NCBI GenBank assembly: GCA_944380675.1
Contig: CALWIH010000012.1
Coordinates: 1-35,686, forward strand
Origin: an uncultured Clostridia bacterium
GTDB lineage: Bacteria; Bacillota; Clostridia; Oscillospirales; Acutalibacteraceae
Length of the DNA stretch: 35,686 nucleotides
Direction: 5' to 3'
Shown here: positions 13,192 to 30,476 of the stretch, piece after piece
Layout of the letters: every line of letters starts with the position of its first letter
Numbering within the stretch: the first letter of the stretch is position 1
The notes under the pieces: model-generated
Databases searched by the model: none
Told to the model about the DNA's origin: nothing
What the model saw: only the letters and a program-made list of their open reading frames with translations
Translations under genes and position numbers: made by a program

Positions 13192-14226
13192 ATGACAAGA
13201 CAGGTGAAGGCGGGAAACATTCTGATCGGCGGCGGCGCGCCGGTGAGTGTGCAGTCGATGCTCAGCGTTCCCTCCACCGATATCGAGGGCAGCGTCCGGC
13301 AGGCGAAAGCACTCGAGGCCGCGGGCTGCGATCTGATCCGCGCCGCCGTCCCGGATATGGACGCCGTGCGGCTGATTCCCGCCCTGAAGGAGGCCGTCTC
13401 CGTCCCGATTGTGGCCGACATTCACTTCGACTACCGCCTCGCCCTCGAGGCGGCGGCCGCCGGCGTGGACAAGATCCGCATCAACCCCGGCAACATCGGA
13501 GACGACAGCCGCGTCAAGGCCGTCGCGGACGCCTGCCGCACCCGCGGAATCCCGATCCGCGTCGGCGTCAACTCCGGCTCGGTCGAGCGCGAGATTCTCG
13601 CAAAGTACGGAGCCCCGACGCCCGAGGCGCTCGTCGAGAGCGCGCTGTACCACGCCTCGCTTCTCGAGCGCTTTGATTTCGGGGACATCGTCCTCTCGCT
13701 CAAGTCGTCGACGGTCGACTCCGCCATCCGCGCCTACGAGCTCTGCGCGTCGCGCTGCGACTATCCGCTGCACCTCGGCGTCACCGAGGCGGGGACGGAG
13801 CGCATGGGCCTTATCAAATCGTCGATCGGCATCGGCTCGCTGCTGCAGCGCGGCATCGGCGATACCATCCGCGTGTCCCTGACGGCAGACCCCGTCCGCG
13901 AGGTCGCCGCGGGGCTGGACATTCTGCACGCGCTCGGCCTGCGCCCGGGCCCGCAGCTCGTCTCCTGCCCGACGTGCGGCCGCACGCGCATCGACCTCAT
14001 CGCCATCGCGAACGAGGTGGAGGCGCGGCTCGCCTCCTGCACGAAGAACATCAAGGTGGCCGTCATGGGCTGCGTCGTGAACGGCCCCGGCGAGGCGCGC
14101 GAGGCCGACGTCGGCATTGCCGGCGGCAAGGGGGAGGGGCTCGTCTTCCGCAAGGGCGAAATTGTCCGCAAGGTGCCGGAGGAGCGCCTCGTGGACGAGC
14201 TCATGAAGGAAATTGAAACCTTTTAG
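13192..14226 (+). CDS. ispG: 4-hydroxy-3-methylbut-2-enyl diphosphate synthase (flavodoxin-type, IspG/GcpE)
   Basis: 344 residues. Starts at ATG 13192, seven bases after rseP. Opening TRQVKAGNILIGGGAPVSVQ and VADIHFDYRLAL are IspG hallmarks. Iron-sulfur cysteines are visible in CPTCGRTRIDL and in MGCVVNGPGEAREADVGIAGG, giving the three Cys plus Glu ligands of the [4Fe-4S] cluster. Converts MEcPP to HMBPP in the MEP pathway, functionally linked to dxr in the same operon. The compact length is that of the common bacterial form, without the plant insert. Confidence 0.96.
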   Translation: MTRQVKAGNILIGGGAPVSVQSMLSVPSTDIEGSVRQAKALEAAGCDLIRAAVPDMDAVRLIPALKEAVSVPIVADIHFDYRLALEAAAAGVDKIRINPGNIGDDSRVKAVADACRTRGIPIRVGVNSGSVEREILAKYGAPTPEALVESALYHASLLERFDFGDIVLSLKSSTVDSAIRAYELCASRCDYPLHLGVTEAGTERMGLIKSSIGIGSLLQRGIGDTIRVSLTADPVREVAAGLDILHALGLRPGPQLVSCPTCGRTRIDLIAIANEVEARLASCTKNIKVAVMGCVVNGPGEAREADVGIAGGKGEGLVFRKGEIVRKVPEERLVDELMKEIETF

Positions 14227-26325: not shown

Positions 26326-26504
26326 GCTGACCCCTCATTTTCTTCGTTTCACAGCTTATCATACCACAGAACGGAGCGGCCCGCCACCTGTTTTTTCATT
26401 TCCCCCGGCGGAGAGGGGGCGGCCGCCCGGTTTTCCCTCGGACCGCGCCTTTGCCGCCGCGGCACGCGCGGCGGACAAGTCTATCGGGAAAGGAGACGAA
26501 AGGG

Positions 26505-27263
26505 ATGGCAAAGGATACGGTTTCCCTCCACTCCGGGCATCGCAGCAGGATGCGGGAGAGAATTCTGCGGGAGGGGCTGAGCTCCCTTGAGGATCATGAG
26601 ATTCTGGAATATCTCCTCTATCATGTGATATCCCGCCAGAACACGAACGAGCTCGCCCACCGCCTGCTGAACCGCTTCGGCACGCTCTCCGGCGTCCTCG
26701 AAGCCCCGATGGAGGAGCTCAGCTCCGTGGAGGGCGTCGGCGTGACGGCGGCGATGTTCCTTCATTCCTATCCCGAGATGTTTCACCTCTATCAGCTTGA
26801 CAAGGCGAAAAAGGTCAGGAGGCTCTGCAGCTTTCCGGAGATCGGCGAGTACGCCCTCTCCTGGCTCAGCGGACAGAAGAGGGAGCAGGTGCTCTTTGTC
26901 CTCCTCGACGCGATGAACCGCATCCTTTTCAGCGAGATTGTATACGAGGGCAGCACAAGTATGTCGGAAATCTACACGCGCGACCTCGTCCGGAGGGCGA
27001 CGCGATTCGACGCCTCTTCCGCCATTCTGGCGCACAACCATCCGAGCGGCGAATTCTGCCCGTCCCGGGAGGACATCGAGACCACCGAGAAGGTTTCGGA
27101 GGCGCTTCGGCAGGTGGAGGTGATGCTGATCGACCACGTCATTGTCGGCGGAAGCGATTTTGTCTCCCTCGCCTCCATCGGCTGTCTGCCGCATATTTTT
27201 GACAGCGATTACTTCGATCATCCTCCCAAACGCCTTGTGGCGGACAGAGGCCGGAGCGAGTAA
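26505..27263 (+). CDS. radC: RadC family JAB/MPN domain protein
   Basis: 252 residues from ATG 26505, preceded by GGAGACGAAAGGG. An upstream in-frame ATG (26451) adds a non-conserved tail and was not used. An N-terminal helix-hairpin-helix region (SSVEGVGVTAAMFL) is followed by a JAMM metal motif: H177 and H179 in AHNHPSG, Ser181, Asp190. RadC was named as a repair protein but its true role is unknown; the metal-site suggests a protease or nuclease. The 179-base gap before it (26326-26504) is GC-rich and shows no clear plus-strand promoter. Confidence 0.93.
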   Translation: MAKDTVSLHSGHRSRMRERILREGLSSLEDHEILEYLLYHVISRQNTNELAHRLLNRFGTLSGVLEAPMEELSSVEGVGVTAAMFLHSYPEMFHLYQLDKAKKVRRLCSFPEIGEYALSWLSGQKREQVLFVLLDAMNRILFSEIVYEGSTSMSEIYTRDLVRRATRFDASSAILAHNHPSGEFCPSREDIETTEKVSEALRQVEVMLIDHVIVGGSDFVSLASIGCLPHIFDSDYFDHPPKRLVADRGRSE

Positions 27264-27385
27264 AGCCGAAGGCGCCGTCCGTCCCGGGCGGCGGCACGGA
27301 AAATCGAAATAAATTGACCAAAAAATCATAAGAATCGAAATGATTTGCAGCAAATTTGGAAAACCTTTTCTTTTTGAAAAAGCGG

Positions 27386-27414
27386 TTGTTTTTCAAAATT
27401 GCGTGTGCTATAAT
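27386..27414 (+). promoter_or_regulatory. Strong promoter for a small RNA
   Basis: TTGTTT (27386-27391), 17 bases, perfect TATAAT (27409-27414). It sits in an AT-rich stretch between radC and the end of uvrA with no protein gene downstream on the same strand. Confidence 0.82.
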
Positions 27415-27420
27415 ACCCCT

Positions 27421-27558
27421 TGTTCGCAGGTTTTTTGTGTGGATGCGGGGAGCAAGGTTATTGCGGCCGGCACGGAAGCGCGTCTTCCGTTTGACAGGAA
27501 TAACCCGGAAGGGGATCGAAAGGGCGGATTGGCGTCGTTTCGATCCCTTTTGATTTTT
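27421..27558 (+). ncRNA. Candidate stand-alone small RNA (about 138 nt)
   Basis: A promoter ends seven bases before 27421, and an intrinsic terminator ends near 27558. In between, GGTTATT (27456-27462) pairs with AATAACC (27499-27505), enclosing a bubble (27463-27471 and 27491-27498) and a terminal hairpin ACGGAAG/CTTCCGT (27472-27490). The 5' 35 bases, with TTTTTT at 27431-27436, appear unpaired. The stem-bubble-hairpin shape recalls 6S RNA, but there is no long closing stem and I could not match it to 6S, SRP RNA, tmRNA, RNase P or a known riboswitch. No plus-strand gene follows, so a cis-acting leader is unlikely. A 36-codon ORF (27443-27553) overlaps it but lacks a ribosome site. Confidence 0.6.
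27509..27558 (+). terminator. Terminator of the small RNA
   Basis: A 13-bp stem: 27509-27521 with 27538-27550 (core GGGATCGAAA with TTTCGATCCC, one G-U pair), 16-base loop, then TGATTTTT. Confidence 0.88.
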
Positions 27559-27598
27559 CGGCAGGGCGAAGAGAGGACGGGGTATTGCGTGGAAAAAG

Positions 27599-27636
27599 AA
27601 ATCGGCTCCCGGCGTATTTCTGCCGGGAGCCGATTT
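27599..27636. terminator. Terminator of uvrA (minus), likely bidirectional
   Basis: A 15-bp perfect stem (27599-27613 with 27622-27636; core CGGCTCCCGGC) with an 8-base loop, two bases past the uvrA stop. On the minus strand the tail reads TTTCTTTTTCC; on plus TTTTCTTATT. Confidence 0.93.
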
Positions 27637-27638
27637 TC

Positions 27639-30476
<2,838 letters not shown>

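Follow-up and report, generated by a model that had tools for sequence, protein, structure and literature searches.

A predicted small RNA gene between radC and uvrA in one genus of gut Clostridia

The window analyzed here is a 35,686-nucleotide stretch of contig C12 from the 2.70-Mb draft genome of an uncultured Clostridia bacterium (G000; 93% complete). Between the converging genes radC and uvrA lies an intergenic region in which a promoter and three serial hairpins, the last of them an intrinsic terminator, are predicted to specify an RNA of ~130 to 138 nucleotides (Table 1). Directly downstream there is no gene on the plus strand, as the original prediction had stated; uvrA is convergent. 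G000 was compared with the other five genomes of its genus (G001 to G005), the set of six being 85 to 100% complete (G005, 86%; G001, 85%). The order radC-RNA-uvrA and the position of the RNA were common to G000, G005, G002, and G003 (relatives' loci L002 to L004, of which L003 and L004 belong to G002 and G003). These four sequences form two close pairs, window with G005 and G002 with G003, which are the clades compared below.

The two flanking proteins differ in pace: between clades, amino acid identity over the compared parts was 54 to 57% for RadC versus 94% for UvrA, RadC evolving far faster. An open frame of 961 codons (27585 to 30470, plus strand) runs antisense to uvrA and is probably an artefact of high third-position G+C. 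Elsewhere in the window, ARAGORN called a 93-nt tRNA-Val (13455 to 13547, minus strand) antisense within a 344-codon frame (13192 to 14226) that is ispG/gcpE-like (named by reading of its translation); the tRNA call is very probably a false positive.

Table 1. Features of the radC-uvrA region, in window coordinates
Feature	Position	Strand	Remarks
radC	26451..27263	+	Upstream neighbour; start uncertain
-35 box TTGTTT	27386..27391	+	Matches consensus TTGACA at 3 of 6 positions
Extended -10 TGCTATAAT	27406..27414	+	TG at 27406-27407, TATAAT at 27409-27414; TGTGCTATAATA identical in 4 of 4 sequences
C-rich stretch, -10 to start	27415..27420	+	From alignment; may form the base of P1 if transcribed (putative role)
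Hairpin P1	27417..27450	+	27417-27420/27447-27450 and 27423-27425/27441-27443; loop varies; from fold and alignment
Predicted transcription start	27421..27422	+	Placed by 7- to 8-nt spacing from the -10
Hairpin P2	27453..27507	+	Outer stem 27456-27462/27499-27505, inner stem 27472-27478/27484-27490; bubble and loop variable
P3, intrinsic terminator	27508..27558	+	Stem 27508-27526/27533-27551, loop GATTRG at 27527-27532, U-rich tail
Bidirectional terminator-like stem	27598..27637	.	Separate from the RNA; beside uvrA in the window clade
uvrA	27639..30476	-	Convergent downstream neighbour

The promoter originally read as TTGTTT-17-TATAAT is present, with a 17-nt spacer, though it is more aptly called an extended -10 with a weak -35. 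Since the -35 box agrees only partly with the consensus and is TTGTAT in G003 (TTGTTT in the other three sequences), the strength of this predicted promoter would rest on the extended -10. Sites of the form TTGNNN, 16- to 18-nt spacer, and TGNTATAAT occurred seven times in 435,686 bases of G000 (the window plus 20 further stretches) and not once in three mono-shuffles, while a strict consensus scan listed no promoter. Over the whole 29-base strip of the predicted promoter, conservation is modest, identity across clades being 72 to 83% (window-G002, 83%) against a shuffled mean of 56% and maximum of 80%. With transcription starting near 27421 to 27422, the conserved CCCC falls outside the RNA and would belong to the promoter rather than to the transcript.

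Single-sequence folds of all four RNAs gave three hairpins in series (the window's from 27417). Folding z-scores for 27417 to 27551 were -3.87 (window), -5.83 (G005), -7.86 (G002), and -6.79 (G003), and none of 200 shuffles of any of the four sequences folded as well as the real RNA. The intrinsic terminator of the original prediction was recovered as P3, whose stem comprises 14 outer pairs (G-U counted) and four inner pairs beneath a conserved GATTRG loop. The 7-bp stem, bubble, and 7-bp apical hairpin that it had also described are present when the window is folded from 27417; in the minimum-energy fold from 27421, alternative pairs replace the outer stem of P2, and the apical hairpin and terminator remain. 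In G005, G002, and G003, the outer stem is retained in folds from the predicted start. A start at ~27421 would leave the GGGGAG motif unpaired in G005; in G002 and G003 it pairs in part with the 5' end, and in the window it joins the alternative fold. Only the G002/G003 clade has a 13-codon ATG frame downstream of this motif, inside P2.

A DNA search of 59 genomes (E up to 1) gave some match in 49, with long strong matches in only four, namely, G000, G005 (93% identity), and G002 and G003 (74%). A 24-base terminator core was found with no mismatches in the same number of genus genomes (4/6), and was absent within three mismatches from G001 and G004. Across clades, the RNA was 74 to 75% identical (shuffled mean, 43%; maximum, 55%), four-fold uvrA sites were 41 to 43% identical, and the radC-side spacer was at baseline (39 to 46%; shuffled mean, 49%; maximum, 60%); shuffles numbered 30 per region for the window-G002 pair only, and the uvrA-side spacer of G002 and G003 was too short for comparison. 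Within the G002-G003 pair, the RNA was 96% identical, versus 71% for four-fold uvrA sites, 63% for four-fold radC sites, and 82% for the spacer. Within the window-G005 pair, the RNA (95%) was barely above four-fold uvrA sites (93%), with four-fold radC sites at 72% and the spacer at 70%. The promoter, hairpins, and terminator are kept at one locus in four of the six genus genomes, which is the conservation in close relatives on which the original prediction had been staked.

Invariant alignment columns made up 73 of 80 paired and 20 of 55 unpaired positions (Fisher p 1e-11, a contrast somewhat flattered by a structure taken from the same alignment), so that conservation of the RNA appears to lie mainly in its helices and points to purifying selection. 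In P2, 14 of 15 consensus pairs were invariant and the remaining pair (27454/27506) was mismatched in the window; by stem, six of seven outer and all seven inner pairs were invariant in the four sequences, the seventh outer pair being lost in G002 and G003. The compensatory changes hoped for in the 27456-27505 stem were not seen. Both partners had changed in only one of 40 pairs (G-C replaced by A-U, in P3), and 88 of 500 shuffles reached the observed covariation score; classical covariation is weak, with predicted helices that barely vary.

Within the genus, a covariance model scored the four RNAs at 144 to 147 bits and the next match at 30.4 bits, leaving one strong match per genome. Weak matches at G005:C5 and G004:C1 were, by eye, terminators beside gene ends, and three more came from the RNA locus read on its opposite strand. 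Among 250 family genomes, with 13 candidates scored per listed genome, model R1 had hits in two, each a member of this genus; it gave none in the radC loci of G004 and of 25 relatives from other genera. Very divergent forms would escape these searches. A loose P2 pattern hit 44 places in 38 of 399 genomes, versus 12 places for the reversed control; four of the 44 were the RNA, and the inner P2 hairpin was seen in none of the other 40 strings. The RNA is found so far in one genus only. A pattern scan of named genomes matched three records: DVGZ01000041.1 (Candidatus Caccousia avicola, placed by NCBI in Oscillospiraceae, Clostridia), NZ_NFJU01000003.1 (Anaeromassilibacillus sp. An200), and CASFAA010000198.1 (uncultured Oscillospiraceae bacterium). 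Strain An200, a carrier of the RNA, is presumably a cultured isolate. A mobile element was rejected: the exact core pattern matched no viral contig, and blastn against plasmids and phages (E up to 0.01) gave no match.

In G004, radC and uvrA are adjacent without the RNA, and only a short terminator-like palindrome lies between them (by eye). In G001, radC was not found and no RNA match exceeded 14 bits; the genome is among the less complete of the set. There (L173, G001:C104), a second uvrA-like gene, a paralogue, comes after uvrA in place of radC. The RNA may have been lost in G004 or gained after G004 split off, and the RadC tree (five rows, no outgroup) leaves both courses possible because its root is a midpoint only, G004 grouping with G002 and G003 solely owing to that root.

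No family in Rfam 15 reached its gathering score in the window. A permissive scan of 27250 to 27660 gave eight matches, none near the gathering score of its family, the best (E 0.051) falling on the uvrA-side stem on the minus strand. The radC-uvrA element is very probably a genuine small RNA gene of ordinary architecture that is absent from Rfam 15. It carries the marks of an intergenic small RNA, with an extended -10 identical in all four sequences, an intrinsic terminator, and apparent conservation as RNA rather than as protein. The alternative offered at the outset, an undescribed small RNA of this clade, finds support in a promoter, hairpins, and terminator kept beside a spacer at baseline. 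SOS control of the RNA was rejected for lack of boxes: GAAC-N4-GTTC with flanking C or G was not found in the window, nor GAAC-N4-GTTC in L002 to L004.

Our preferred reading, to which we assign a probability of about 0.6 on the comparative evidence, is an independent small RNA gene of ~130 nt with its own promoter and terminator, whose product would act in trans without Hfq. Hfq (PF17209) was found in none of the six genus genomes by a search that matched 5 of 14 control genomes, so the host Hfq on which an Hfq-dependent small RNA relies was not seen in the genus. CsrA (PF02599) was found in three of the six (G001, G002, and G003; not in G000, G004, or G005), a distribution unrelated to the presence of the RNA. 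Together these two results favor an Hfq-independent, trans-acting RNA. Transcription would begin at ~27421 from a housekeeping-type promoter and end at P3, and the hairpins would give a stable RNA that may base pair with mRNAs, most likely through GGGGAGCRAGG (between P1 and P2) and the GATTRG terminator loop. Duplex scoring against 39 frames shared by the four neighborhoods gave a best mean z of -2.3, for a hisC-like frame (named by reading), with uvrA at -0.8 and radC outside the best 15 of the 39. No convincing target emerged among these frames, in a scoring that ignores internal folding and uses guessed gene starts and some probably spurious frames.

The main rival, because both helix arms are frozen in sequence, is that an RNA-binding protein would recognize the helices themselves and be sequestered or guided by the RNA, a reading that we consider rather unlikely. 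P2 and P3 hardly vary on either arm across clades whose uvrA synonymous sites are 41 to 43% identical, a constancy beyond what pairing by itself would demand. There are also five invariant GGA triplets, and GGA was enriched over mono-shuffles in three of the four sequences (p about 0.01), though not in G002 (p 0.11). CsrA, a GGA-binding protein, would be the obvious partner; however, its distribution does not follow that of the RNA, and three of the five triplets lie wholly in stems while two straddle a stem end. A CsrA sponge is not supported, csrA having been found in only two of the four carriers (G002 and G003). A more specific and doubtful version is that this genus-specific RNA, fixed in both helix arms, would be the docking platform of a putative RNA-binding regulator in hosts where no Hfq was found.

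It is distinctly unlikely that the segment is mainly a terminator shared by radC and uvrA, with any short RNA a by-product or a fragment of the radC 3' untranslated region. Between the end of radC and the promoter of the RNA, the terminator scan listed no terminator-like site. In G002 and G003, the uvrA stop codon lies 11 to 13 nt from the end of the RNA, so P3, being a palindrome, may also serve as the uvrA terminator; R1 weakly matches the opposite strand there (20.6 to 29.0 bits), and the palindrome of G004 is all that stands at that position. A terminator alone, however, would leave TGTGCTATAATA and the P2 stems free to vary, and both are identical; in the window clade, moreover, uvrA has a terminator-like stem of its own.

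More improbable still is that the transcript serves as a short mRNA encoding a small basic peptide, either as its sole role or in a dual-function RNA. GGGGAG precedes the ATG of the 13-codon frame by 7 nt in G002 and G003; at about that position, a 30-codon frame starting with TTG occurs in the window and G005. The peptides predicted from the two frames are nevertheless unrelated, the 30-codon frame differs between the window and G005 at two sites that both alter the amino acid, and the helices explain the conservation; no reading frame of at least eight codons in the RNA is common to both clades. A putative lineage-specific peptide from the 13-codon frame is possible in the G002/G003 clade.

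A divergent or second 6S RNA, the former raised originally and the idea favored by the RNA's size and by a bubble inside a stem, is hardly credible: the candidate gave no match to RF00013 even with E allowed up to 10, the bubble of G002 and G003 is shorter and different in sequence while three separate hairpins remain, and G000 has its own 6S match on another contig (C44:15096-15283; 64.5 bits against a cut-off of 46.4), as do the other five genus genomes above cut-off (in all, at E up to 0.1, 34 of 39 genomes matched and 31 exceeded the cut-off, including 6/6 of the genus).

The independent, Hfq-free small RNA that we prefer adds a well-bounded, comparison-supported prediction to a gut group for which the papers searched yielded no work on small RNAs of Oscillospirales or Anaeromassilibacillus. 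With no Hfq found in the six genus genomes, it may offer an example of riboregulation without Hfq. On an intergenic small RNA near uvrA and radC, the papers searched brought up only work on the Vibrio cholerae SOS regulon.

Among known systems, 6S RNA is a long rod with one large central bubble; it is likewise a structured small RNA of similar size with a bubble within a stem, but it is a single rod, whereas the radC-uvrA RNA is predicted to form three short serial hairpins. RNAs of the CsrB/RsmZ type, which titrate CsrA, also carry several GGA triplets, but the invariant ones here are mostly within stems, and csrA went undetected in two of the four carriers. The radC motif (RF01754) resembles it by name in lying beside radC, but is listed for Proteobacteria (PMC2864571), while the present RNA is clostridial, is encoded downstream of radC, and gave no match to it. 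Structured RNAs near uvrC have been surveyed (PMC8040213). The intergenic small RNAs of Clostridioides difficile (PMC3649979) were approached with the terminator as a starting clue and had their own promoter in the cases shown. The present candidate differs from that set in having no Rfam match and no Hfq gene found in its genus, and in being a gene predicted from sequence; it resembles the set in its intergenic location, its terminator, and a promoter of its own.
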